This document shows positions 11,459-57,013 of a stretch of DNA of 64,000 bases, piece after piece. Source of the stretch: Bacillus nitratireducens. Lineage in GTDB: Bacteria; Bacillota; Bacilli; Bacillales; Bacillaceae_G. Where the stretch lies: NCBI RefSeq assembly GCF_001884135.1, contig NZ_MAOC01000027.1, forward strand, positions 178,472 to 242,471. The letters run 5' to 3'. The notes below the pieces were generated by a model that saw only the letters and a program-made list of their open reading frames with translations, had not been told where the DNA came from and searched no databases. Each line of letters begins with the position of its first letter. Position 1 is the stretch's first letter. Position numbers and translations under genes: made by a program.

Positions 11459-12157
11459 ATGATGAATAAAAACATATTAATTATTGATGATGATAAAGAT
11501 ATTGTAGAATTACTCGCTGTTTATTTGCGAAATGAAGGTTATAACATTTATAAAGCTTATGATGGTGATGAAGCATTACAAATGATATCTACATATGAAG
11601 TTGACCTTATGATTTTGGATATTATGATGCCAAAACGAAATGGATTAGAAGTTTGTCAAGAAGTGCGTGAAAATAATACTGTACCTATTCTTATGCTTAG
11701 TGCAAAAGCTGAAGATATGGATAAAATATTAGGACTTATGACCGGTGCAGATGATTATATGATTAAACCGTTTAATCCTCTAGAATTAGTTGCTAGAGTG
11801 AAAGCATTGTTACGTAGATCATCTTTCCAAAACGCTGCCACACCAAAGAATGAAGATGGTATTATTCGCATTCGTACAGTTGAAATTCATAAACATAATC
11901 ATACGGTTAAAGTAAATGGTGAATATATTAAGCTCACCTCTATCGAATTTGATATTTTATATTTACTTGCGAGTAATACTGGAAGAGTATTTAGCTCTGA
12001 AGAGATATTCGAACGCGTTTGGAATGAAGACGGTTATGGTTCTAATAAAACGGTAATGGTCCATATTAGTAATTTACGCGATAAACTTGAAACCGTAATG
12101 AATGGTGAAAAACTAATTCATACGGTTTGGGGAGTAGGATATAAAATTGAGAAATGA
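11459..12157 (+). CDS. OmpR/PhoB-family response regulator, VanR-like
   Basis: A 232-residue response regulator. The receiver domain has the acidic pair in IIDDDKDI, the phospho-Asp in MILDIMMPKRNG (about residue 53), LMLSAKAED and the Lys of ADDYMIKPFNPLEL. The winged-helix output domain spans about 130-230 with LTSIEFDILYLLASNTGRVF and VWGVGYKIEK. Overall it is close to the VanR branch. The ATG at 11459 follows AAAGGA by five bases; an upstream ATG at 11411 has no ribosome site. It overlaps the kinase gene by 11 bases. Confidence 0.9.
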   Translation: MMNKNILIIDDDKDIVELLAVYLRNEGYNIYKAYDGDEALQMISTYEVDLMILDIMMPKRNGLEVCQEVRENNTVPILMLSAKAEDMDKILGLMTGADDYMIKPFNPLELVARVKALLRRSSFQNAATPKNEDGIIRIRTVEIHKHNHTVKVNGEYIKLTSIEFDILYLLASNTGRVFSSEEIFERVWNEDGYGSNKTVMVHISNLRDKLETVMNGEKLIHTVWGVGYKIEK

Positions 12158-13304
12158 AGCATTTGATATATTAAAAGATATACCAAAGTGGAAGCTTATT
12201 TTTTGGCTTTTATTAGCTATCACTCTTACACCTATTACCGAATTAATTATATTTCGCCTCGTAACGAGTGTAATTGAGAGTTCACTTACTCTAAGCGAAC
12301 TAGGTAAAGAATTCATTCGAATTTTTGGTTATGAAAAGTATAGAGGGATAAAGGAATCTTTATGGATGATGATCGTTTCTTATTTGTTTTTATTTTCTAT
12401 TTTCTCATCCTATCTTTACATTTTTTATCGTCATGAAAGAAAGCTTTACTATGAAACTTGTATCAAAAAAATGATTGAAGAAATTCGATATATTGCGAGT
12501 GGAAACTTTAATCATAAAGTTTCTATTGTACAGCATAATTATTTAGAAGAATTAGCAACTGGCGTTAATCAAATTGTTGAACAGTTAAAAGTATCAATTG
12601 ATGAAGAAAGACAGGCGGAACAAGCAAAAAGCGAACTAATTACAAATGTATCACATGACTTACGAACGCCTCTTACATCTATAGTTGGATATGTGAATTT
12701 AATTCATCATGATAATTATAGAGATGAAGTGGAATTGCGTCATTATATACAAGTCATATACGATAAAGTAACCCGTCTCAACGCATTAATGAATGATTTG
12801 TTTGAATATACACGTGTTCAAAATAAAGAGTTAAGTTTAAATTCTGTTCCTATTGATATTGTAGAATTGCTTGGACAATTAACTGTCCAATTTCGGATAC
12901 AGCTTCAAGAAGCTAATATTGAATGTCGCCCTTCTTTCCCATCTCAAAAGCTAATGGTACTCGCTGATGGGGATAAATTAGTACGTGTGTTTGAAAACCT
13001 AATCATAAACGCTATTACTTATGGAAATGATGGAAATCATATTGATATTACAGCTTACGAAGACAATCATACGATTGCAATTGATATAACAAATTACGGA
13101 CAGGCTATCCCAAGTACTGATTTACCTCATGTTTTTGAACGTTTTTATCGCGTAGAAAAATCACGATCGACAAACACCGGTGGATCAGGGCTCGGATTAG
13201 CAATTGCAAAAAGTATTGTCGAACTGCATAAAGGAACAATTGAAGTATATAGTGATGATGAAAAGACAACTTTCACTGTAAAATTACTTCCATATAAATG
13301 TTAA
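12147..13304 (+). CDS. Sensor histidine kinase, VanS-like
   Basis: A 385-residue membrane kinase starting at TTG, with AGGA seven bases upstream inside the regulator gene. Two transmembrane segments (about 16-40 and 74-96) flank a short outer loop of about 35 residues. They are followed by a HAMP-like linker, the H-box SHDLRTPLTSIVGY (His about 171) and the ATP-binding motifs NLIINAITYGNDG, HVFERFYRVEKS and GGSGLGLAIAK. The small outer loop suggests sensing at the membrane. The regulator and the DacA-like gene downstream form a locus reminiscent of VanRS with a D,D-carboxypeptidase, but no vanHAX genes are present. Confidence 0.88.
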   Translation: MRNEAFDILKDIPKWKLIFWLLLAITLTPITELIIFRLVTSVIESSLTLSELGKEFIRIFGYEKYRGIKESLWMMIVSYLFLFSIFSSYLYIFYRHERKLYYETCIKKMIEEIRYIASGNFNHKVSIVQHNYLEELATGVNQIVEQLKVSIDEERQAEQAKSELITNVSHDLRTPLTSIVGYVNLIHHDNYRDEVELRHYIQVIYDKVTRLNALMNDLFEYTRVQNKELSLNSVPIDIVELLGQLTVQFRIQLQEANIECRPSFPSQKLMVLADGDKLVRVFENLIINAITYGNDGNHIDITAYEDNHTIAIDITNYGQAIPSTDLPHVFERFYRVEKSRSTNTGGSGLGLAIAKSIVELHKGTIEVYSDDEKTTFTVKLLPYKC

Positions 13305-13318
13305 TATGGCATATTTTT

Positions 13319-13353
13319 AGGTTCAATTTCTTATCTAATAAGAAATTGAACCT
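13319..13353 (+). terminator. Terminator after histidine kinase
   Basis: A perfect 15-base stem (AGGTTCAATTTCTTA with TAAGAAATTGAACCT) around a 5-base loop, followed by TTAATTTT. It separates the two-component genes from the DacA-like gene, which must have its own promoter. Confidence 0.85.
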
Positions 13354-13383: not shown

Positions 13384-13413
13384 AATTCCTTAAAATTCTT
13401 TAGAAATTCTTTA
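13384..13413 (+). promoter_or_regulatory. Three helically phased direct repeats upstream of DacA-like gene
   Basis: AATTCCTTA (13384), AATTCTTTA (13394) and AATTCTTTA (13405) recur at 10 and 11 base steps, about 70-100 bases before the DacA-like start. OmpR-family regulators bind direct repeats with this spacing, so this is a candidate site for the regulator encoded at 11459. Confidence 0.45.
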
Positions 13414-13485
13414 CCTTTTCTTTCTTACTAATTAAGCATTCCTTCTTACAATAATATTATTGATGTAATTGTAGGAGGATCGCGT

Positions 13486-14502
13486 ATGCAATTTTTTAAA
13501 AAAATAACAATTTTATTATTATCTTTTCTTATTACTGTACTTATCGTTTTATATTTTTATCTTTATGTAAATGGTCCAACTATTCGAGCTAAATCAGCTA
13601 TTTTAATAGATACTAATTCTGGTGAAATTGTTTATAAAAAAAATGAACGTACTCCTATTCAGTCGGCCACTTTATCTAAATTAATGACAGAATATATTGT
13701 AATGGAACAACTTCATGATGGCAAAATACAATTAGATGAATCTGTGAAAATTAGAAACGAAGTTTTTCAAACAGAAACAAGTCCGATCCAAGTAACATCA
13801 AAGGATAACACTACCGTTCGTGACTTACTTCATGCTTTGCTTTTAACCGGAAATAATCGTTCTGCGCTTGCACTTGCAGAACACATTGCTGGAAATGAAG
13901 ATAATTTTACATCGTTAATGAATGAAAAAGCAAAGCAACTAAAGTTATCACAACAATCTCCATTTTTAAATTCAACCGGAATAAATAGTGAAAAGAATAG
14001 ACAATCAATTACTACAGCAATAGACGCAGCCGAAATAGCTGCACAATTAATAAAAGACTATCCAGATGTATTAAATATTACTAAACAAACCTCTTATCGA
14101 TTTACCTTCAAAGATGTTCAAGTTTTCAACACAAATAAAATGATTTATTCTCTTAATAAAAACATTAAATTAAAAGATGTTGATGGCTTACAATCTAGTT
14201 TGTCAACTAACGGTAATTACAGTTTTGTTAGTACCGCAAAACAAGGAGACACACGTTTTATTTCTGTAGTATTAGACGCCAATGAAGAAAACACCGCTTT
14301 TGTTGAAACAAAAAAGTTACTTCAATACGGTTTTGAACCTACCTCATATTCTGCACTCCAAGCTTTCAAAGACACTATTACATCTTGGACCATTTTACTT
14401 CAGTTTAAAAATTTAATCATACAAACAGTAATAATCTTTTTAATCATTACGATCCTAATGTTTTTACATATACGTCAGAAAAAATCCGAGGACTTTAACT
14501 AA
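13486..14502 (+). CDS. DacA-like penicillin-binding protein with degenerate active site
   Basis: A 338-residue protein with the D-Ala-D-Ala carboxypeptidase (S11) fold. An N-terminal membrane segment (about 6-28) precedes ILIDTNSGEIVYKKNER, which is typical of the family. All three penicillin-binding motifs are altered. SxxK reads TLSK at 62-65 (Thr for the nucleophile), SxN reads TGN at 121-123, and the position of KTG in VDGLKTG reads VDGLQSS at 234-238. The intact DacA at 55575 in this window has SMTK, SAN and KTG in the same places. The C-terminus is a transmembrane helix (about 305-328), not an amphipathic anchor. It may be a substrate-binding or sensory pseudo-enzyme for the adjacent VanRS-like pair. 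Start ATG with GGAGG seven bases upstream. Confidence 0.85.
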   Translation: MQFFKKITILLLSFLITVLIVLYFYLYVNGPTIRAKSAILIDTNSGEIVYKKNERTPIQSATLSKLMTEYIVMEQLHDGKIQLDESVKIRNEVFQTETSPIQVTSKDNTTVRDLLHALLLTGNNRSALALAEHIAGNEDNFTSLMNEKAKQLKLSQQSPFLNSTGINSEKNRQSITTAIDAAEIAAQLIKDYPDVLNITKQTSYRFTFKDVQVFNTNKMIYSLNKNIKLKDVDGLQSSLSTNGNYSFVSTAKQGDTRFISVVLDANEENTAFVETKKLLQYGFEPTSYSALQAFKDTITSWTILLQFKNLIIQTVIIFLIITILMFLHIRQKKSEDFN

Positions 14503-14521: not shown

Positions 14522-14550
14522 AAACCGACTTGCATTTAGCAAGTCGGTTT
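14522..14550. terminator. Bidirectional terminator
   Basis: A 12-base perfect stem (AAACCGACTTGC with GCAAGTCGGTTT) lies between the converging DacA-like and DinB genes. Confidence 0.85.
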
Positions 14551-39427: not shown

Positions 39428-40357
39428 TTACCTAAGAGCATTGATTACAACTTCAGCAGCCTCTGCAATTAGTTGATTATCATAGGTAGCCTCTTTCTCA
39501 TCTTTACTAGATAAAATTGCGATGATAATGGGTGCTCTATTTGGCGGCCAAACGATAGCAATATCATTGCGTGTCCCATAACTTCCAGCTCCTGATTTAT
39601 CTCCAACTATCCAGTCAGTTGGTACGCCTGCACGAATAAGTTTGTCTCCTGTAGTATTTCCTTTCATCCACTCTGTAAAAATGTTACGTTTATGAGCTGG
39701 AAGCGCATTTCCGACCGTAAAAGCTTTAAGATTCGTAGCAATTGCTTTCGCTGTACTAGTGTCACGAATGTCCCCTGGAATAGCCTCGTTTAACTCTGGC
39801 TCAAAGCGATCAGCCATAGTAACACGATCACCCATCTGTCTAAGTGCTTTTTCATATCCTTTAGGTCCGCCTATTTTATTAAATACAATGTTCCCGGCAG
39901 TATTATCACTGGAACGAACAGCTGCCTCTGCAATTTCCCCAAGTTTCATGCCTGTATCTACATGTTTCTCTGTAATGGGTGAATATTCAACTAAGTCTTC
40001 TTTCGTATAAGTGATAACTTCATTTAATTTATCAATTGAGTTTTGCTGTAGCAATACCCCTGCCGCTAAGGCCTTATAGGTTGATGCATAGGCAAACCTC
40101 TCATTAGGTCGATATGCAATTGTACGATTTGTGCCAGTATCAATAGCATACACGCCTAACCGAGCATCAAATTTTTTCTCAAGTTGAGAAAATTCTTTAT
40201 ACGTCGCATGATTTTTATGTTTCACTTGCCCTGTCTTTTCTTTCGCTTCAACTTGCAATGTCCCTCCTGTAATAGTTTCTAGGCTTGTAAGACTTAAACC
40301 TAATATACCAACGCATATTCCTATTTTTAGTATCCTCTTGTTTTTCAAAATCATCAT
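39428..40357 (-). CDS. bla1: Class A beta-lactamase (Bla1 type)
   Basis: A 309-residue penicillinase very like B. cereus group Bla1. It begins MMILKNKRILKIGICVGILG as an export signal. All catalytic motifs are intact: STYK (Ser92, Lys95), SDN (150-152), EPELN (Glu186, the Ambler 166 position) and KSG (254-256). The mature enzyme is secreted and hydrolyses penicillins. The start is one of two adjacent ATGs behind GAAAGGA; spacing is short, and a TTG nine bases on is possible. A sigma-P-type promoter lies at 40445-40473, matching the known control of bla1 by SigP. Confidence 0.93.
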   Translation of the reverse strand: MMILKNKRILKIGICVGILGLSLTSLETITGGTLQVEAKEKTGQVKHKNHATYKEFSQLEKKFDARLGVYAIDTGTNRTIAYRPNERFAYASTYKALAAGVLLQQNSIDKLNEVITYTKEDLVEYSPITEKHVDTGMKLGEIAEAAVRSSDNTAGNIVFNKIGGPKGYEKALRQMGDRVTMADRFEPELNEAIPGDIRDTSTAKAIATNLKAFTVGNALPAHKRNIFTEWMKGNTTGDKLIRAGVPTDWIVGDKSGAGSYGTRNDIAIVWPPNRAPIIIAILSSKDEKEATYDNQLIAEAAEVVINALR

Positions 40358-40444
40358 TCCTTTCAAACTTTTAATACTGAAAACAAGTGGTAAATTCAAT
40401 ACACTGTATCCAATTTGAACACCTGTTTTTATACGTACACATAA

Positions 40445-40473
40445 TAGACTCTCTAAGTAACAAGTTTGTTCCA
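40445..40473 (-). promoter_or_regulatory. Sigma-P-type promoter of bla1
   Basis: Minus strand: TGGAACA, 16 bases, AGTCTA. The -35 and -10 halves and the exact spacing match the four other copies in this window. The expected RNA start lies about 80 bases before bla1. Confidence 0.75.
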
Positions 40474-40514
40474 TAAATAAAAAAATTCTTTAACTAGTAA
40501 TAGAGGTATTAACA

Positions 40515-43196: not shown

Positions 43197-44963
43197 ATGT
43201 TACATATAAAAATAAAAAGATGGAGATTTATAGCGGTTTTTTCTATTGTAGGTGTGATTTTAATAATTTTGTTAAAAAGTAATTTCGTTTCAATTACTAC
43301 CGAGACTTCTTCAGCTGAAAGAGGAAAAATTCTTGATCAAAATGGTGTAATACTAGCTACAAATAAGAAAGTTAAGTCTCTATATTGCACTTCTAATGAT
43401 GAAAAACTATCGAATCAAGATACATCAAACACATTAGCTTTTTTTAATCAATTTTCAAACGAGTTTCAACATGATATTTCTACAGAGGACATAAAATCAC
43501 AATTACAACAATCTTGTAAAAAGCAGACTATGAATGATATACCGTTATACTCTGACATAAATGAGAGTGAGCTTACATTCATAAACAAAAACAAACCCAA
43601 TAATGTAATAATCAAAGATGAATGGATCCGATATTATCCTAAACACGAAATTGGTTCACAACTAATTGGATATGTAGAAAATGACCTTAATTCTAAGTAT
43701 GGACCTGTTGGGAAAAGTGGGATTGAGCTTCAATATGAAAATGATTTAAAAGGAAAACCCGGAAAAACTCTGATTTTTAAAATGAATAATAAAAAGTTCT
43801 TATGGAACATTCAAAAAGTACAAAAAGGAAAAGATGTCCGGCTAGCTTTAGACTCTAAATTGCAGCAAAAAACAGAGGAAGCATTAAGATCTCAAATTAA
43901 GAAAATACCTGATGCTAATGCTGGTTATGTTGTAGTAACCGATGTAAAAACTGGCGCAATTTTAACTATGGCCAACTCAGCAGTTTTTAATCCAAATACA
44001 TTAAATACACATGTATCATCTAAAAATGAAAACATTAAATCACTTTCGCAAAATAAAGCAATTCAAAAATTAAAGTACGGTGAATATTATGTAAATATGG
44101 CCTCTACTATAAAGCCACTTACTATTTTAATTGGATTAAACGAAAAGCTTTTTCAACCTGAAGATACTTATTTAGATAAGGGTAGTTTTCAGTATGATAA
44201 TCAAAATAACATTACGAATGCACCTGGAACGCCAACTGGTGAAATTACACCGAGGCAGGCTATCATTAATTCATCTAACACATTTATGACAGCAAAAGTA
44301 GCACTGCCCTTATTCAACCAAAATAATGGGAATATAGAAAAAGTGGCACATATATGGACAGATTATTTAATGCAATTCGGCCTACGTTCTAAAACCGGGA
44401 TTGATTTACCCTTTGAAGAAGACGGACAATATGAATTCCATCCATCTAATAAGTTTGAAAATGGAATCTCCGCTTTATTAAATGCCTCTTGGGGAGGAAA
44501 TGAAGTGCATACTCCTCTTCAACTCGCTCAATATGCAGCAACTTTGGCAAGTAAAGGTGATAAATATAAACCTCAAATCGTAAGTGCTATTATTGGTCAG
44601 GACGGTAAGGAAACAAAAAAGTTTAAGCCAATTTTAGAAAGTTCCAATCGTTATCCTATGAAATTTTGGAGTGTCGTGCAAGGTGGAATGAGTCAAAATA
44701 TAGAGGAGATTAAAAACTTTCCCTTTCATGTGGCAGGTAAAACGGGTATTACAGGTTTTCCGAATGAGCAAGAAAGAATGATAAATCATTCTCTATTCAT
44801 TGCATATGCTCCTACCGAAGATCCACAAATTGCTATTTCTGTCGTTATTCCTGGTAGTAATTCAGAAAAAAATATTGCTGCTCTCGTTACATCAGAAATT
44901 TTAGAGTCCTGGAATACGCTTCAAAAAGAAAATAAAAACAAAGAGGAAGGTTCATTAAAGTGA
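43197..44963 (+). CDS. Class B penicillin-binding protein (transpeptidase)
   Basis: A 588-residue class B PBP. The membrane anchor is at about 10-28; ERGKILDQNGVILATNKKVK at 41-60 starts the pedestal domain. Catalytic motifs are STIK at 303-306, SSN at 359-361 and KTG at 515-517 in HVAGKTGITGF. It is shorter than its neighbour and resembles the PbpI/PBP4b group. GGGAGGG lies eight bases before the ATG. It is divergent from the PBP at 40657 and converges with rsiP across a shared terminator. Confidence 0.9.
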   Translation: MLHIKIKRWRFIAVFSIVGVILIILLKSNFVSITTETSSAERGKILDQNGVILATNKKVKSLYCTSNDEKLSNQDTSNTLAFFNQFSNEFQHDISTEDIKSQLQQSCKKQTMNDIPLYSDINESELTFINKNKPNNVIIKDEWIRYYPKHEIGSQLIGYVENDLNSKYGPVGKSGIELQYENDLKGKPGKTLIFKMNNKKFLWNIQKVQKGKDVRLALDSKLQQKTEEALRSQIKKIPDANAGYVVVTDVKTGAILTMANSAVFNPNTLNTHVSSKNENIKSLSQNKAIQKLKYGEYYVNMASTIKPLTILIGLNEKLFQPEDTYLDKGSFQYDNQNNITNAPGTPTGEITPRQAIINSSNTFMTAKVALPLFNQNNGNIEKVAHIWTDYLMQFGLRSKTGIDLPFEEDGQYEFHPSNKFENGISALLNASWGGNEVHTPLQLAQYAATLASKGDKYKPQIVSAIIGQDGKETKKFKPILESSNRYPMKFWSVVQGGMSQNIEEIKNFPFHVAGKTGITGFPNEQERMINHSLFIAYAPTEDPQIAISVVIPGSNSEKNIAALVTSEILESWNTLQKENKNKEEGSLK

Positions 44964-44974: not shown

Positions 44975-45802
44975 TTACCATATAGTATCTATATTTATTA
45001 TTTTCCATTCACCTGCATCATTCTTTTCAAACATAAATGAATACTTAATATCAGTTAAAACATACTCTTTTTGTACATATCCAGTATTACCGTTTATTGT
45101 AGATATTTTTATATATCCATCATTCTGCACCTTTTCTGGAATCCAAGCTTTTACCATTTCATTAGATACTTCATATAAAACTTGTGATTCTCGTTTTGGT
45201 TCAGCTAAAATTTTTGTTTTATTTCCAGTAACAGTTGCATATATAAAATGCGCTTGCTTTGGTTGGTTACCTTCTGTAAATCCACTTGGTACTTTGTATA
45301 CTTTTTTTGTATCATTTGCAAATTCTCCTCCCATTGTAAGAGCGACTTGCAACTCATGAAAAATATCTTCATCAAACTTCAATTCATCCTTCTTATAACT
45401 CTTCCCTTTAAATAGAACTTCATCATTTAAAGCTCTAAACAGGTCATTTTCATTTTTTGAATTTGTACTTTGATATAAATCATTCATAAATTGTTTTAAT
45501 GATGGATCTTGAGCAGACTCATCTTTTGTTTTCGGCTTAATTTGAGTACTACTTTGTACCGGTGATTTATTATCATCAAGCCAAGGTTGTTGTACAATAA
45601 AAAATAACATTGTACAAACCAAAACAACTACAATAGGTAATGCTTTTTTACGAAATGGTCTCTTGTATGTTACAGAATCTACTTCACTATTTTGGTATAC
45701 CGATTGCTTTATTTTATTAATAAATTCTTCTTCATCTTTACGACGCTCCATTGGTCCGTTTTTTAATTTGCTATACCAGTCAGGATTTTTTTTACTGTTC
45801 AT
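44975..45802 (-). CDS. rsiP: Anti-sigma factor RsiP-like
   Basis: A 275-residue bitopic membrane protein. The cytoplasmic part (about 1-53) has NPDWYSKLKNGPMERRKDEE; one transmembrane helix follows (about 55-70, ALPIVVVLVCTMLFFIV). The outer part includes an SH3-like segment (KTKILAEPKRESQVLYEVSN to GNTGYVQKEYVLTD). It overlaps sigP by about 11 bases, the usual sigma/anti-sigma pairing. In the B. cereus group RsiP holds SigP inactive until beta-lactams trigger its proteolysis; the sensing details are not visible here. The ATG at 45802 or the GTG just before it may start it. Confidence 0.85.
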   Translation of the reverse strand: MNSKKNPDWYSKLKNGPMERRKDEEEFINKIKQSVYQNSEVDSVTYKRPFRKKALPIVVVLVCTMLFFIVQQPWLDDNKSPVQSSTQIKPKTKDESAQDPSLKQFMNDLYQSTNSKNENDLFRALNDEVLFKGKSYKKDELKFDEDIFHELQVALTMGGEFANDTKKVYKVPSGFTEGNQPKQAHFIYATVTGNKTKILAEPKRESQVLYEVSNEMVKAWIPEKVQNDGYIKISTINGNTGYVQKEYVLTDIKYSFMFEKNDAGEWKIINIDTIW

Positions 45803-46325
45803 CACTTCTACCCTCCCCTATTAGTTTTGAAACCTTACTTCTCGCTCGGCTTAATCTAGATTTGACTGTTCCAATTGACACCTCTAATGTTTCAGCCATT
45901 TCTTCATAAGACAATTCATATTTCGCGTCCAATATTAGTATTTCGCGGTGTTTTTTAGGTAGTTTTAATACAACATCCCATACATCATTCATTTCTTCTT
46001 GCTTAAAAAATTCTTGTTCTGCCGATGGAGATTGCTTATCGTCACTAAAAAATCCCACTAAAGATATCCTTTTAAAATAAGAGGATTTCAAATAGTTTAT
46101 TGCCGTATTTCTTGTAATTTTTAATATCCACGTTTTAATAGATGACTCCTTTCGAAACGAATGCCAATGTTTAAAAACCTTAATAAATACATCTTGTGTG
46201 ATGTCATCTGATAAGTGTGGATCTTTCGTAATAATAAATGAATAATTCCATACATCTTGCCAATAGTCTTTTATAACATACTCAAGCTCATCATGATTAC
46301 ATTTTTCAATAAACTTCTGTTCCAT
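45792..46325 (-). CDS. sigP: ECF RNA polymerase sigma factor SigP
   Basis: A 177-residue ECF sigma factor. Region 2 spans about 20-85 (DYWQDVWNYSFIITKDPHLS, DDITQDVFIKVFKHW, IKTWILKITRNTAINYLKS). Region 4 spans about 115-170 (LPKKHREILILDAKYELSYE, EMAETLEVSIGTVKSRLSRA). In this species group SigP activates bla genes in response to beta-lactams. Here an identical promoter form occurs at sigP itself (46392-46420) and at four other sites within 17 kb. The ATG at 46325 is seven bases after GAGG; a GTG six bases upstream is an alternative. Confidence 0.92.
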   Translation of the reverse strand: MEQKFIEKCNHDELEYVIKDYWQDVWNYSFIITKDPHLSDDITQDVFIKVFKHWHSFRKESSIKTWILKITRNTAINYLKSSYFKRISLVGFFSDDKQSPSAEQEFFKQEEMNDVWDVVLKLPKKHREILILDAKYELSYEEMAETLEVSIGTVKSRLSRARSKVSKLIGEGRSDEQ

Positions 46326-46391
46326 TTCCACACCTCAAACTTATTTGAATAAACATAAAACTGCCCTCACTTTTAATATGGTTTCAATATA

Positions 46392-47243: not shown

Positions 47244-49184
47244 TTACATTATTTTTTTATATAACCGTTGTAAATAACGCCAACGGACAGTGAAAAAGTA
47301 CACACTTTGAATGGATATAAAGGCTAGTATAATTAAAATGGACATCTTTAAAACAGAGAAGTCAATTAGCTGTTGCAAGGCTATAAAAGCGACACCACTA
47401 TGAATAATCGCTATAATTAAAGGCAAGAAGAACATTAACGTAAGCTGACGCGTTACGATTTTCTTTAGCTCTCTTCTACTTAGACCGACCTTCGCAATCA
47501 TTTCATATTGTTGTTGTTGTTCCCGTTCTAAATCTGCATATAGTCGGAAATATAAAAGACTGGCTGCGAACGTAAAGAATACGATACCTACTAATACACT
47601 AACGATAAGTAAAATATCGTTCTCTTGTTTCGAAGAAATCCATTCGGAATACAATGCTTCAAAATAATGATGTGTTTGCACCGAATTATTATTACCCATT
47701 GTTGCTTCTAATTTTTTTGTAACCGCTCTTGATTTTTCCCAATTTCCCACTACAAATCCATATTGATTTTTCATTACGTAAGAATCATCTTCCGTCTTTC
47801 TATTCGGGATTGTATCGTACAAAGAATCCGAAACAACAATAATAGATCCAATTGTATTTGGGAGAACTATATATGGGACCGCCTTCTTGACCTGAAGAGA
47901 CATCTCCAAGTTTTCCTGTACTACATCTATTCTCTCAGGTATATCTTTTCCTCTTGCATACTTTTCCTTTTGCGAAACTATTGATGGTACTATGATTGCT
48001 TGTTGATCATTGTCTAACTTTTCCATTTCATATCCGAAGATTTTTGCAAACTTGTTATACTCTGATACTTTGATTAGCACTAAATTATTTTCCGTGAATT
48101 TAGGATTCGTAACCGCTACCTGATAAGAGAAATTTGAGCGAGTGAATTGTTTTTTTATTTCTGTAATGTGCTCTTCTTCTTGTAAATTATCTCCTAACGA
48201 AGTATAGGTAAATGCAAATGGGTTGGTCATTTCGGTTAATCCCTTATTTCCCATTGCTAGGCATGTACCAATCCCTGTGAAGGCCACAGCGGAAACGATC
48301 GCTAGCATAAAGAACATAGTTGTATTATCCTTCATACGATAGGCCAATTCAGATATAGTAAGCAGGTTTGTTTTATTAAAAAACAAAGTGTCTTTTTTCT
48401 TTAAGACTCGTATTACATACACACTCAACTGTGAAAATAGAAAATATGTCCCTATCACTACAAAGACTACCCCTCCAAGTAAGTAAGGCATAATGAAGTT
48501 TCTTTCTAGTACGAAATAGAACACACATCCATACCCTAATCCAATGAAGAATACGGAAAGAAATGCTAATGCTTTTGATGCCTTTGGCTCTGGTTTTGGT
48601 TTTTCCTCTGATTTCATCAAATCAATAAACTTGTTTCCTTTTACCATCTTAGAAGTAAACAAAGAAATAACTAGAAACAGAATCAAAAATGCGCCAGTTG
48701 TCATAAAGACAGCTTTTATAGGAACATAAAAAGGAAGTCCATTATCAATCGCTAATATATTTTCACTTGCTAATAAATTGAGCTTTGCAAATATCAATCC
48801 AATTAAGATACCAAACATAATAGATCCGATTCCAATTAACATATTTTCTAAAAAAATTAATTTGTTTAACTGCGCCGGTGTCATACCATGCATGATTAAA
48901 ATTCCAAATTCTTTTTTCCTTGTTTTAAAAAAAGAACTCACCGAATATAAAAGAAAGAAAAATGAAAATATAAAAATGAGATATTGAGATATTTGCATAC
49001 CCATTGTTCCTAATAGACTCATTGTTTTACTTGTGGAGACTAGTTCTCCTTGTAAATCAGGATGGAAAAGTAAGAGTGAATATGTGAAAAAAACCATAAC
49101 TGAAAATGAGCTACTTAGAAAGTGTGCAGCATAAGTCCGCTTACTTCGAATGATATTATTAAAAGCGAATCTTTGAAAAGTCAT
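47244..49184 (-). CDS. BceB-type ABC transporter permease
   Basis: A 646-residue FtsX-like permease with ten predicted transmembrane helices and one large outer domain (about 310-520) between helices 7 and 8. That is the hallmark of BceB/YxdM transporters, which free lipid-II-cycle targets from peptide antibiotics and also signal to the kinase. The N-terminus MTFQRFAFNNIIRSKRTYAA is typical. It overlaps the ATPase gene by 26 bases. Confidence 0.9.
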   Translation of the reverse strand: MTFQRFAFNNIIRSKRTYAAHFLSSSFSVMVFFTYSLLLFHPDLQGELVSTSKTMSLLGTMGMQISQYLIFIFSFFFLLYSVSSFFKTRKKEFGILIMHGMTPAQLNKLIFLENMLIGIGSIMFGILIGLIFAKLNLLASENILAIDNGLPFYVPIKAVFMTTGAFLILFLVISLFTSKMVKGNKFIDLMKSEEKPKPEPKASKALAFLSVFFIGLGYGCVFYFVLERNFIMPYLLGGVVFVVIGTYFLFSQLSVYVIRVLKKKDTLFFNKTNLLTISELAYRMKDNTTMFFMLAIVSAVAFTGIGTCLAMGNKGLTEMTNPFAFTYTSLGDNLQEEEHITEIKKQFTRSNFSYQVAVTNPKFTENNLVLIKVSEYNKFAKIFGYEMEKLDNDQQAIIVPSIVSQKEKYARGKDIPERIDVVQENLEMSLQVKKAVPYIVLPNTIGSIIVVSDSLYDTIPNRKTEDDSYVMKNQYGFVVGNWEKSRAVTKKLEATMGNNNSVQTHHYFEALYSEWISSKQENDILLIVSVLVGIVFFTFAASLLYFRLYADLEREQQQQYEMIAKVGLSRRELKKIVTRQLTLMFFLPLIIAIIHSGVAFIALQQLIDFSVLKMSILIILAFISIQSVYFFTVRWRYLQRLYKKIM

Positions 49185-49929
49185 GCTTACGACCTCCTAA
49201 TAATGCAAGTACATCTATAATTTTTTGATAAAACAATTGTTGGTTTTCTCCATTATAAATTTCGTTATACAATTTTCCGTCTTTAATAAATACAACACGA
49301 TCACAAAAACTTGCAGCCACTGGATCGTGCGTAACAAGCATCATTGTTGCATCTTGTTCTTTATTTAATCGTTTTAATAACTCCATTACATCATTAGCCG
49401 CTTTTGAATCTAAGTTTCCCGTCGGTTCATCTGCTAGTAATAATTTGGGTTTATGAATTAGAGCACGTGCAATGGCTGTTCTTTGTGCTTGCCCACCAGA
49501 TATTTCATATGTTCGTTTATTTAATATATCTTGAATGCCTAATTTTTCTGCAATACCTTCTACCTTCCGATTCATTTCCTCAACTTTGGTACCATCTAAC
49601 GTCAGAGGAAGAACAATATTTTCTTTTACAGTTAATGTTGTAAGAAGATTGAATGCCTGAAACACAAAACCTAATTCACGTCTTCGAAATAATGCCAGTT
49701 CATTTTGAGATAATTGATATGGATTTTCTCCATTAATCAATATTTTTCCTGATGTGGGAGAATCAATAGTAGAAACCATATTCAACAAAGTAGTTTTTCC
49801 ACTTCCTGATGGACCCATTATTCCTACAAACTCCCCTTTTTTCACACTCAAATTAATGTCGGAGAGTGCTTCATAAGATACCTTTCCTGTATAGATTTTA
49901 CTCAGTTCACAGACCTTTAATATTTCCAT
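49159..49929 (-). CDS. BceA-type ABC transporter ATPase
   Basis: A 256-residue MacB/LolD-type ATPase. Walker A is GPSGSGKTTLLNM, the Q-loop is GFVFQAFNLL, the signature is ISGGQAQRTAIA, Walker B is LLLADEPTGNLDS and the switch His is in LVTHDPVAAS. It energises the BceB-type permease. A BceR-like site lies 85 bases upstream. AAGGAGCAAAATGAT precedes the ATG. Confidence 0.92.
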   Translation of the reverse strand: MEILKVCELSKIYTGKVSYEALSDINLSVKKGEFVGIMGPSGSGKTTLLNMVSTIDSPTSGKILINGENPYQLSQNELALFRRRELGFVFQAFNLLTTLTVKENIVLPLTLDGTKVEEMNRKVEGIAEKLGIQDILNKRTYEISGGQAQRTAIARALIHKPKLLLADEPTGNLDSKAANDVMELLKRLNKEQDATMMLVTHDPVAASFCDRVVFIKDGKLYNEIYNGENQQLFYQKIIDVLALLGGRKHDFSKIRF

Positions 49930-50013
49930 ATCATTTTGCTCCTTATTATCTTTTGATAACCTAAGTTTATCTAAACCTTCCTTCTTCTCATATCGATTAA
50001 CCTTTCATGTATC

Positions 50014-50027
50014 TAACAGGTGTGTAA
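50014..50027. promoter_or_regulatory. BceR-type operator before transporter genes
   Basis: The minus strand reads TTACACACCTGTTA, that is TTACA-N4-TGTTA, close to the TNACA-N4-TGTAA inverted repeat bound by BceR-like regulators. It lies between the kinase gene and the transporter genes, where the regulator should act. Confidence 0.55.
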
Positions 50028-50056
50028 GATTTCTGAAAAGTTAAAATAAATATATG

Positions 50057-51043
50057 CTAACGATTTGCATAAGGGAAAATGATACGAATTGTTGTTCCTT
50101 TTCCTACTTCCGACTTTATTTCAATATTATGCTCCAATCTTTTTATAATACTTTTCACAAGATATAATCCCATCCCAGTAGATTCCTTAAATTTCCGCCC
50201 GTTTATTCCCGTATAAAATGGGCGGAACACTCTCGGAAGGTCTTCCTTTGGAATTCCCACACCATGATCTTGTATTGTAAGGATTACAGAGCGCTCTTCT
50301 TCTAATGTAGTAATAGTAACGTTTTTTCTACTTCCTGCTGAATACTTAATGGCATTGGATATCACTTGATGAATAACAAACCGAAGCCACTTTCTATCGG
50401 TTTCTACCATAATAGTTTGTTTTATTTTCACTTCTGGATATACATAGTTACGGATAAATAAACGTTTATTTTCACGGATTACTTCTTGAACAATATCCTG
50501 TAATGACACTCTTTCCACATAAAAATCTTGCTCAAACGTTTGTAATCGCGCCATATATAACACCATTTCTAATCCATACTGCATTTGATCTACTTCTTCT
50601 ACAATACTTTCAAAAACCTCCCCATTCTCTTCTTGTGTGATCAGTTCAATAACTGATAACGGCGTTTTCATCTGATGCACCCATTGATTAATAAATGTAA
50701 GGTGTTCTTTTTGTTTATACTCCCAAGTCCTTAACTGTTGATGATATTGACTATATTGTGTTTCTAATACTCGCTGAAGTGCAACTGATAATGGAGTAGA
50801 ATCCAGTTCTTCTAAGGATTCCTCTAATGTTTCTGAAGAAGTGGATAATTTTTTATAAAATCTACGATGGCTATAATAGCAATAAACTAAATACCCAATT
50901 AAAAAACATCCTCCTAAAAACACACTATATAATGCAGTAGATAAATGATTATATCCATCCAGCCAATAAACAGTTAGAACAACAAATAGCTGAATAATTG
51001 AGAAACAGATGAAAGGGATATGTTCACGTAAAAATAAATTCAT
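50057..51043 (-). CDS. BceS-type intramembrane-sensing histidine kinase
   Basis: A 328-residue kinase with two transmembrane helices (about 10-28 and 36-56) and only a few residues between them outside. Such kinases have no sensor domain and depend on the transporter for signal. The H-box is INQWVHQMKTPLSVIELI, and the ATP motifs are ISNAIKYSAGSRKNV, DHGVGIPKEDLPRVFRPFYT and GMGLYLVKSIIKRL. It follows the regulator by two bases. Confidence 0.9.
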   Translation of the reverse strand: MNLFLREHIPFICFSIIQLFVVLTVYWLDGYNHLSTALYSVFLGGCFLIGYLVYCYYSHRRFYKKLSTSSETLEESLEELDSTPLSVALQRVLETQYSQYHQQLRTWEYKQKEHLTFINQWVHQMKTPLSVIELITQEENGEVFESIVEEVDQMQYGLEMVLYMARLQTFEQDFYVERVSLQDIVQEVIRENKRLFIRNYVYPEVKIKQTIMVETDRKWLRFVIHQVISNAIKYSAGSRKNVTITTLEEERSVILTIQDHGVGIPKEDLPRVFRPFYTGINGRKFKESTGMGLYLVKSIIKRLEHNIEIKSEVGKGTTIRIIFPYANR

Positions 51044-51045
51044 TA

Positions 51046-51750
51046 TTAAACCTCATCATTCTTCCAAGTTATTTTCAGACGATATCCTGCACCACGAACT
51101 GTTTCTAATGCATTTTTTATTCCGATTTCTTCTAATTTTTTTCGGACACGTGTAACATTTACACTTAAAGTATTATCATCTACATACGTATAGTCATCCC
51201 AAAGTTTTTCTAAGATTTTCTCTCGACTAACAATGCTAGGAGATTGTCGTAAGAGAGTTTCTAGTAAAACAGTTTCTTTTTTAGACAGAATACACATGCT
51301 ATCATTTAGCTTTAATTCCATTTTTTCTGGATAAAGTATTAAACCAGATTGCTGAACAACTCTTTCTTCTGCTTTAGGTGCATATTCCCCATAGATTCTT
51401 CGAAGATGACTTCGGATTTTTGCCATTACAACTTCATAATGAAACGGTTTAGTGATATAATCGTCTGCACCATGTTCAAGTGCCATAACTTGCTCCATCT
51501 CTCCATTACGTGCTGATATAAATATAATGGGACAAGTTGAGAGCGTTCTAATTTGTCGGCACCAGTAAAAACCATCAAAACTAGGTAAATTTACATCTAA
51601 TAAAACTAAATCAGGTTGAATTTTCACAAAGTTATCTAAAACATTTTCAAAATCCTCTGTAATATTCCCTTCATATCCGTACTTATTAATATGGGATTGA
51701 AGTAATTTAGAAATTTTTTGGTCATCTTCTACAATCATAATTTTATACAT
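51046..51750 (-). CDS. BceR-type response regulator
   Basis: A 234-residue OmpR-family regulator. The receiver has MIVEDDQKISKLLQ, phospho-Asp in LVLLDVNLPSFDGFYWC, and Lys in ADDYITKPFHYEVVMAK. The output wing has SRVSREKILEKLWDD-like features (VSREKILEKLWDDYTYVDDN) and ends with VRGAGYRLKI. With the kinase and transporter it completes a Bce-type flux-sensing module. AAGGAGCTTAATAT before the ATG. Confidence 0.92.
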   Translation of the reverse strand: MYKIMIVEDDQKISKLLQSHINKYGYEGNITEDFENVLDNFVKIQPDLVLLDVNLPSFDGFYWCRQIRTLSTCPIIFISARNGEMEQVMALEHGADDYITKPFHYEVVMAKIRSHLRRIYGEYAPKAEERVVQQSGLILYPEKMELKLNDSMCILSKKETVLLETLLRQSPSIVSREKILEKLWDDYTYVDDNTLSVNVTRVRKKLEEIGIKNALETVRGAGYRLKITWKNDEV

Positions 51751-55574: not shown

Positions 55575-56888
55575 TTAGCTTTTTACTATATCAATTGCAC
55601 TATCCCACATACTACTAAAGAAAGATCCTATTTCGCGCATAAAACGTGTAAACCAATTAGCTTGTTCTACATCAGATTTTGTTACAAGGTCTACTTGTAA
55701 TGATTTACCTAATAAAAACCCAGGATCTGTACTATCTTTAGGCGAGATAATCATTTTACTAATTGTTACACCTTTTTTAATAGGTGCTTCTTGTTCTTCA
55801 TTCGATACTTTAAATTCTTTTTTATAAACGTCTTTGTTGCTCTTTGGTATTGGAAGTAAAATAGCTTGCTTCGTTTGAACTACTACATCTTTGTCTTTTG
55901 CATTTGCTACTCGCACTGTTTCATACCCTTTTACTACGGATTCTTTTCCATAGACCTTCTTCACTTCAAAATTCGCAAATCCATAATCATATAATTTCTT
56001 GGTTTCATCAAAACGTGCTGTATGAGAGTTTGCTTTTATCACTACAGAGATTAGACGCATACCGTTTCTTTCTACTGTACCAGTAAAACAATCTCCGGCT
56101 TCTGGAGTAGTTCCTGTTTTTAACCCATCTACACCTTCGTATTGCTTAATTAAACCTTTTAACATCCAGTTAAAGTTCGTCATATCAATCGGATACTTGC
56201 CACCATTTTGGAATGTTTTTTTAGGGATTTTTGCTGTATCTAATATTTTCGGGAAATCTTGAATAAGACGTTGTGCTAAAATCGCACAATCTCTTGCGGA
56301 CATTTTATTTTTCTCGTCTGGAGTTGTCCCTTCTGGGTGATGTCCTTTTAAATCATGGTTTGTTAAACCTGTAGAGTTTACAAATTTATAATTTTTCATT
56401 CCAAACTCTTTTGACTTATCGTTCATCATTTTCACGAAATTGACTTCTTTTCCAGCAATCTCTTCAGCTAAAGCAATTGTTGCTCCATTTGCAGAGTAAA
56501 TTACCATTGCCTCATATAACTCTTTTACCGTATAAGAGCCACCATTTTCTAATGGAACGTTTGATAATGAGCGATCTTGCGAAATCTTATATGCATATTC
56601 AGAAATTTTAACTTTTTGATCCCATTTGAGTTTTCCTTTATCCACCGCTTCATGAACTAAGTATTCACTCATCATTTTTGTCATACTAGCAATTGCTAAT
56701 GATTCATCTGCATTTTTTTCATATAAAATTTTTCCAGAATTTGCTTCTACTAAAATTGCTGATCCTGCTTCTACGTCTATAGCAGGAACTGTTTCCGCTG
56801 ATGCTCTTCCAAATGTAACGATCATGCTACAAAATAGTGTAAGCACTGTTACTATTGCAATAAATCTCTTGCAAAACATACCTTTCAC
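55575..56888 (-). CDS. dacA: D-alanyl-D-alanine carboxypeptidase (PBP5, DacA type)
   Basis: A 437-residue low-molecular-weight PBP. A signal peptide ends near Ala31 (RASAET). The active-site motifs are intact: SMTK at 68-71, SAN at 132-134 and KTG at 257-259. The C-terminal part is the beta domain plus an amphipathic anchor (NWFTRFMREIGSFFSSMW). It trims the last D-Ala from peptidoglycan stem peptides. The GTG at 56888 has GGAGG eight bases upstream. A sigma-P-type promoter and a bla-like vestige lie 130-270 bases upstream, so dacA may belong to the beta-lactam response. It is probably a dacA paralogue. Confidence 0.9.
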   Translation of the reverse strand: MKGMFCKRFIAIVTVLTLFCSMIVTFGRASAETVPAIDVEAGSAILVEANSGKILYEKNADESLAIASMTKMMSEYLVHEAVDKGKLKWDQKVKISEYAYKISQDRSLSNVPLENGGSYTVKELYEAMVIYSANGATIALAEEIAGKEVNFVKMMNDKSKEFGMKNYKFVNSTGLTNHDLKGHHPEGTTPDEKNKMSARDCAILAQRLIQDFPKILDTAKIPKKTFQNGGKYPIDMTNFNWMLKGLIKQYEGVDGLKTGTTPEAGDCFTGTVERNGMRLISVVIKANSHTARFDETKKLYDYGFANFEVKKVYGKESVVKGYETVRVANAKDKDVVVQTKQAILLPIPKSNKDVYKKEFKVSNEEQEAPIKKGVTISKMIISPKDSTDPGFLLGKSLQVDLVTKSDVEQANWFTRFMREIGSFFSSMWDSAIDIVKS

Positions 56889-57013
56889 TTCTGTTACCTC
56901 CAATATCTTTGTACTCAAAAAAAGTTGTTCTAACATAATCCTTCAAAAAATGGACAGCGTTATCAAATTCTATATACATATAAGACATTAGGACCACTTT
57001 CATATAGAACATC

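Follow-up and report, generated by a model that had tools for sequence, protein, structure and literature searches.

The described systems closest to the gene considered here are the S11 D,D-carboxypeptidases (DacA/PBP5, PBP6 and VanRS-linked forms) and the VanY-type D,D-carboxypeptidases of van operons, which remove the D-Ala gripped by vancomycin. We analyzed a 64-kb stretch of DNA from Bacillus nitratireducens (contig NZ_MAOC01000027.1; hereafter the window), in which a gene for an S11-fold protein follows the genes of a VanR-like regulator and a VanS-like kinase; this order had been proposed in a first-pass annotation, and Pfam and NCBIfam matches agreed with it. Compared with the known S11 D,D-carboxypeptidases, the window protein differs in three altered motifs and a lost arginine, as well as in a C-terminal transmembrane helix and the absence of a PBP5 C-terminal domain by Pfam. 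It runs with a VanRS-like pair, as VanY-type enzymes do, and its operator is common to VanG-type ligase operons. In contrast with the van operons of VanY-type enzymes, no ligase, VanXY, VanT or VanZ homologue was found within the 64 kb (dehydrogenases were not searched for), and the sole weak ligase match (21 bits) was a biotin carboxylase. VanY-D is of the serine type. The window protein is not catalytic by motif and reached 46.6 bits against the vanY_of_D cut-off of 625.

A signalling part of penicillin-binding type has been described in the same species group as the window, namely PbpP of the sigma-P/RsiP system of B. thuringiensis; extracts of the report state that signalling was still activated when an active-site mutant of PbpP (S301A) was over-expressed (PMC8092216). 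PbpP binds beta-lactams, unlike the window S11 protein as we read it, and the window has a separate probable PbpP. The LiaF-LiaS pair offers another comparison: LiaS, a short-loop kinase with an architecture similar to that of VanS, is controlled by its membrane partner LiaF, and the window kinase has a short loop too. To our knowledge, LiaF does not have the fold of a penicillin-binding protein (PBP). Control of VanS by an auxiliary protein was called formally possible and not carefully investigated in extracts of a review (PMC8541618). In SCO4439 of Streptomyces coelicolor, a transmembrane region connects a D,D-carboxypeptidase domain with a putative regulator domain, according to extracts of its description (PMC4751497). 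It differs from the window protein in having canonical motifs, being active and forming a single fused protein. Extracts of two further papers (PMC4938410 and PMC9912610) held nothing on the window locus, and no paper on the YxkC-DacA pair, seen as a Protein Data Bank title, was found in open-access full text. Among the matches listed from such full text, outside which most subscription journals lie, none dealt by its title or the start of its abstract with a VanRS-controlled S11 carboxypeptidase that is inactive, and our claim of novelty for such a protein is a weak one.

Overall, we consider it rather probable that the window S11 gene encodes a live, VanR-controlled membrane pseudo-carboxypeptidase that came from a VanY-like module. 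It was probably kept as a non-enzymatic regulator and not as junk, because an intact dedicated VanRS-type control site precedes the gene of a catalytically dead S11 protein. The protein matched the Pfam family Peptidase_S11 (PF00768) at 181.1 bits (cut-off 27.6), and AlphaFold2 gave it a confidently PBP5/6-like fold, which bears out the earlier statement that the fold landmarks remain. The first-pass annotation had also stated that all three penicillin-binding motifs were altered, reading TLSK, TGN and QSS against the SMTK, SAN and KTG of an intact DacA, which is indeed present in the same window. TLSK and QSS were read correctly; TGN is one column off, and in the ungapped register the DacA residues S-A-N face G-N-N (residues 122-124). 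Each change had further been said to remove an essential residue. This holds for the catalytic serines and for the lysine and glycine of KTG, but the SxxK lysine and the SxN asparagine are kept. None of SxxK, SxN and KTG being intact, the protein does not qualify by motif as an active enzyme.

The extent of these losses was assessed in an alignment of 39 rows (A1), which includes 10 of the 78 loci from a scan of named genomes, omits loci L107 and L108, and has the protein of genome G673 trimmed to an internal ATG. Three rows with GVSK were set aside, and in the resulting conservation set of 35 rows the columns of serine 62, serine 122, lysine 236 and glycine 238 were each invariant (35/35, fraction 1.0, the three rows lacking serine 62 being the excluded ones). 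Threonine at the nucleophile occurred in none of the 38 other A1 rows. The arginine facing R244 of PBP6 was present in 97% of the 35 rows and is replaced in the window protein; by its place, this column is presumably that of the arginine in the R248L mutant entry of the Streptomyces K15 enzyme. An arginine of the R248 type helps hold the substrate carboxylate, and the KTG lysine and glycine, together with the R244-type arginine, contribute to carboxylate binding. With both the KTG lysine and this arginine lost, the usual carboxylate pocket is probably dismantled in the window protein. Forty-four columns were at least 94% conserved in the 35 rows, and the window protein retains 34 of them. Eight of its ten departures fall in three active-site segments (8 of 13 conserved columns versus 2 of 31 elsewhere; Fisher p 0.00025, with 0.00028 at a 90% cut-off and 0.0014 at 97%), segments that were drawn around the known motifs after the losses were known. 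Outside them, 29 of 31 conserved columns are kept, and the arginine facing PBP6 R244 is one of the two exceptions.

The control site lies directly ahead of the S11 gene: TCTTTAGAAATTCTTTACCTTTTCTTTC (13397-13424) is a 28-bp box with two 11-bp repeats, followed after 22 bp by TACAAT, with 33 bp from there to the start codon. The S11 promoters of genomes G024 and G673 have a near-identical box, the same 22-bp spacer and TACACT. The operator pattern was derived from these promoters, and the test therefore lies in the absence of other matches. At up to three mismatches it matched the 3.8-Mb G024 genome twice, at the S11 and regulator promoters, and the 5.7-Mb G673 genome once, at the S11 promoter. 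The box, with one to three mismatches, also precedes the S11 genes of G743, G690, G691, G689 and Paenibacillus sp. SC116, and the ligase operons of G743 and G690. Among eleven sites compared by eye, the -10 box stood at 22 bp in ten and at 21 bp in one (the G024 regulator promoter), that of SC116 being weak (CAAACT). The operator and promoter layout are thus common to VanG-type ligase operons, as expected of a van-type regulon. Three matches in genome G285, all at three mismatches, were taken as chance, because a reversed control gave one. The possibility that the S11 gene is simply the third gene of one operon was ruled out by its own promoter and by the hairpin terminator that separates it from the kinase gene (-21.9 kcal/mol, z -7.76 versus shuffles; 1.0 such site expected by chance in the scanned stretch).

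The other feature that sets the protein apart is its membrane attachment. AlphaFold2 modelled residues 285-337 as one long helix, and the 19-residue Kyte-Doolittle mean (KD19) peaked at 2.68 from residue 311, so the C-terminal transmembrane helix proposed in the first-pass annotation stands. This helix was unique to the window protein among the rows compared: of the other 38, 25 had tails of at least 19 residues with a KD19 maximum of 1.29, and 13 had tails of at most 16 residues, which cannot be scored. The N-terminal hydrophobic helix is widespread in the family.

Homologues of the S11 protein were found at E<=1e-46 in 3 of 397, 23 of 394 and 10 of 398 genomes in separate searches, making 33 different genomes. 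A kinase related to that of the window adjoins the S11 gene, or lies one regulator gene off, in 14 of them (G024, G673, G571, G690, G691, G689, G743, G240, G766, G746, G1096, G1026, G1110 and G1103), a lower bound, as the flanks covered spanned 1.5 kb at some loci and about 4-10 kb at others. The nearest S11 homologue found, 45% identical over 283 residues, is that of G024, from the family-level group of Ectobacillus panaciterrae, in which the order regulator, kinase, S11 gene is shared. Regulator and kinase of the window are, by sequence, close kin of the VanR and VanS of acquired glycopeptide resistance, yet they fall under the NCBIfam cut-offs (287.1 bits versus 350 for vanR_ACDEGLN; 261.2 versus 400 for HK_VanS_ACDEFG). 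The regulator scored 106.4 bits with Response_reg and 90.9 bits with Trans_reg_C in Pfam and is 67-69% identical to its counterparts in G024, G673 and G690. Hydrophobic segments at about residues 16-43 and 68-94 of the kinase enclose an outer loop of about 25-30 residues.

Several of these loci have the make-up of van-type clusters. Genes for a VanG-like ligase and a VanT-like racemase are among the neighbours in G690, G743 and G240; the G690 ligase scored 457.7 against the VanG cut-off of 495, and that of G743 is VanG-like. In SC116, a ligase that exceeds the VanG cut-off (574.6 versus 495) is encoded divergently from the S11 gene, together with a VanXY-like gene (198.0 versus 250), a VanT-type racemase (559.2 versus 460) and a VanZ-like gene. 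As the ordinary S11 form often occurs in van-type clusters, a VanY-like role for it would be the natural inference. G690 also carries an AmpD-like amidase gene (L125:8708-9364) between the racemase and the S11 gene. In G1096, G1026, G1110 and G1103 (L196, L198, L199 and L201), a kinase gene, a canonical S11 gene and a VanZ-like gene stand in a row.

In the 78 named-genome loci the serine and lysine of SxxK were present in 75, altered in two (L060 and L074) and not covered in one (L065), and several of the 78 lacked the SxN asparagine. The two altered ones (L060:5935-7182 and L074:3-1088) are S11-like proteins from Clostridiaceae that differ in each of the three motif regions. A motif table of 30 non-window rows, which omits the duplicate loci L001, L002 and L080-L082, held 24 rows canonical at all three motifs, five with GVSK and one (L098) with SAD and KAG. 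Matches to the S11 protein in 163 plasmid and 64 phage records were all below 60% identity, which does not support a phage or plasmid origin, and a search of viral contigs found no relative.

The first-pass annotation had looked to homologues in the same position for the TLSK/TGN/QSS form, holding that ordinary motifs there would mark a strain-specific dying gene. All 14 kinase-linked homologues have SxxK, SxN and KTG; a dying gene does not follow from this, because operator, frame and fold are conserved. Decay is still the alternative that deserves most attention: catalysis would have been lost and selection relaxed, with operator and frame not yet broken. The canonical motifs of the kinase-linked homologues speak for it, as does the confinement of fast evolution to the S11 gene. 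In a tree of 47 rows the window protein grouped with G024, G673 and the SC116 group (97/97), within a set of 15 rows (100/97) that holds most VanRS-linked rows, a placement made less certain by its long branch; its residue make-up was likewise flagged as unusual by the tree tool. Its terminal branch measured 1.2 changes per column, against 0.36 for G024 and 0.30 for G673. In relative-rate counts it had 38-57 unique changes versus 12-30 in the sister (p<0.05 in 19 of 21 comparisons, which have rows in common). A matching excess was seen in one of eight comparisons for the kinase (p 0.049) and in none of four for the regulator, which points to a change of constraint specific to the S11 protein. 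On the other hand, the gene has neither a broken frame nor a lost promoter, its losses cluster at the active site while 29 of the 31 other conserved columns are kept, and its C-terminal transmembrane helix is absent from the other rows. In a weight matrix built from ten non-window sites, the window operator scored 37.5 bits, above all ten training sites (26.6-37.0), and the next site in the 64 kb scored 8.3. Taken together, lost active site, kept fold, gene-specific rate shift, added helix and intact operator point to a live pseudoenzyme more than to a dying gene, and we regard decay as unlikely.

Several observations nevertheless weigh against a live pseudo-carboxypeptidase. The altered form is represented here by one sequence, and no Bacillus cereus-group orthologue was found in the 78 loci or in a family group of 19 genomes, where the nearest DacA stood at 64%. 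At up to three mismatches the operator was found in six of the 14 kinase-linked loci (G024, G673, G743, G690, G691 and G689) and was absent from eight (G571, G766, G746, G240 and the four VanZ-linked ones). The window regulator's own promoter lacks the box, as does that of G673, and the sites of the weight matrix were found with a pattern partly derived from the window, so that they are not fully independent. Faster evolution fits plain relaxation too, and the intact frame is weak evidence, the simulated chance of no stop being 0.05-0.08 after 32 neutral amino-acid changes.

The first-pass annotation had proposed a pseudo-carboxypeptidase of the VanRS-like pair that binds D-Ala-D-Ala or a drug without turnover. 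The regulatory tie to the pair proved strong, through the operator shared with VanG-type promoters, but the usual binding of D-Ala-D-Ala or a drug seems unlikely, and less likely than first proposed, given the loss of the lysine and glycine of KTG and of the arginine opposite R244 of PBP6. A protein that binds D-Ala-D-Ala, lipid II or a beta-lactam and reports to the kinase would be in keeping with the intact fold, the retained SxxK lysine and SxN asparagine and the short outer loop of the kinase, and extracts of one report describe PbpP, itself a PBP, as the beta-lactam sensor of another B. thuringiensis system (PMC8092216). However, a substrate carboxylate should bind less well without the lost residues, homologous kinases have a canonical S11 gene as their partner, and glycine-type proteins of a sister clade, described below, fit a binder better; such a sensor is improbable, and we place it behind decay. 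Least credible is that the protein is still an enzyme, with threonine as nucleophile beside the retained lysine and perhaps an altered substrate specificity. Threonine would retain the hydroxyl, and K65 and N124 are kept, but four further active-site changes occur together (SxN serine, KTG lysine, KTG glycine and the arginine), and no other A1 row has a threonine nucleophile, which makes continued catalysis very improbable.

If the window protein is a live pseudo-carboxypeptidase, it would descend from a functional S11 D,D-carboxypeptidase that probably trimmed D-Ala-D-Ala ends in the manner of VanY. In this lineage the protein would have lost catalysis and become a membrane protein, with an anchor probably at each end. 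It would be expressed upon kinase activity and would act by binding, not by catalysis. The likeliest mechanism, which we put forward tentatively, is that it assists the short-loop kinase in the membrane or feeds back on it, by analogy with LiaF acting on LiaS; a target protein located in the membrane beside its own kinase would be a natural feedback partner, and the contact between the two is putative. A scaffold or decoy role at the wall-synthesis machinery ranks close behind and is likewise tentative. Whatever the mechanism, the locus offers a natural example of a VanRS-like pair that has kept its operator before a protein that is non-catalytic by motif, with relatives keeping the ordinary form in the equivalent place, and a comparison of the altered and ordinary forms would separate enzymatic from non-enzymatic roles of the target.

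A loss of the nucleophile also took place, separately, in a sister clade, one genus of the SC116 family, in which an S11 homologue was present at E<=1e-80 in all 75 genomes. Among 50 copies read, the nucleophile was glycine in 36, asparagine in five and serine in nine; 30 of these copies were the best by score and 20 were picked by hand, so the shares are not those of a random sample. The glycine form has GVSK or GISK with SAN and KTG intact (L117:7323-8213, L127-L158 and L173-L176). In five proteins of this form (L104, L105 and L107-L109), the ratio of nonsynonymous to synonymous substitution rates (dN/dS) was 0.02-0.06 in nine of ten pairs, with one pair saturated and dS above 2 in three more. 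These low ratios show that dead S11 proteins can be kept by selection, which is no proof for the window gene. The second loss in the same genus, NMSK with KAG, accounts for five of the 50 copies (L160 and L162-L165; wider stretches L177 and L178). No regulator or kinase like that of the window was found in ten loci of this genus (L117 and L177-L185, with at least about 5 kb per side). A broader idea, more doubtful than either mechanism above, is that, in Bacillota, VanS-like kinases are assisted by a membrane protein that is also their main transcriptional target. In the Bacillus cereus group this partner would be a catalytically inactive carboxypeptidase completing a feedback loop on the kinase, and S11 proteins around van regulons and in the sister clade would repeatedly yield pseudo-carboxypeptidases (with threonine in the present case, and with glycine or asparagine in the sister clade).

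Table 1. Positions of the features of the S11 locus and of the ordinary DacA gene in the 64-kb window
Feature	Position	Strand	Evidence
VanR-like OmpR-family response regulator gene (receiver and winged helix)	11462-12157	+	Pfam, NCBIfam
VanS-like histidine kinase gene	12147-13304	+	HisKA and HATPase_c
Intrinsic terminator between kinase and S11 genes	13319-13353	+	16-pair stem, loop of 3, T-rich tail
VanR-type operator, 11-bp direct repeats	13397-13424	+	Sole window match at <=3 mismatches, 0 expected
-10 box TACAAT, 22 bp after operator	13447-13452	+	Spacing shared with G024 and G673 S11 promoters
Shine-Dalgarno sequence AGGAGG	13473-13478	+	Direct reading
Putative pseudo-D,D-carboxypeptidase gene, S11 fold	13486-14502	+	338 residues, ATG start, intact 338 codons
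Hydrophobic helix at the N-terminus (residues 2-28), an anchor or a signal peptide	13489-13569	+	AlphaFold2; KD19 up to 2.63
SxxK position, reads TLSK, residues 62-65; lysine K65 kept	13669-13680	+	Column alignment
SxN position, reads GNN, residues 122-124; serine lost, asparagine N124 kept	13849-13857	+	Ungapped register
KTG position, reads QSS, residues 236-238	14191-14199	+	Column alignment
Conserved arginine position (PBP6 R244), alanine A271 here	14296-14298	+	Alignment to 3it9
C-terminal transmembrane helix, then basic tail	14413-14472	+	KD19 2.68
Ordinary DacA	55575-56936	-	SMTK, SAN, KTG

An inverted repeat at 14522-14550, 3' of the S11 gene, probably serves as a terminator for both this gene and the convergent one; it was read directly and was not among the sites of the terminator scan. 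About 29 kb from the S11 gene lies what is probably a PBP-based beta-lactam sensing locus, consisting of the probable PbpP (43197-44963, + strand), which is of the transpeptidase class with its STIK serine at residue 303, and of probable RsiP and sigma-P (44975-45805 and 45792-46331, both on the - strand), with a class A beta-lactamase nearby (39428-40474, - strand). Finally, the stretch 47244-51750 (- strand) holds a second regulator-kinase pair beside an ABC transporter with a large permease, and its translations resemble peptide-antibiotic modules of the Bce type.
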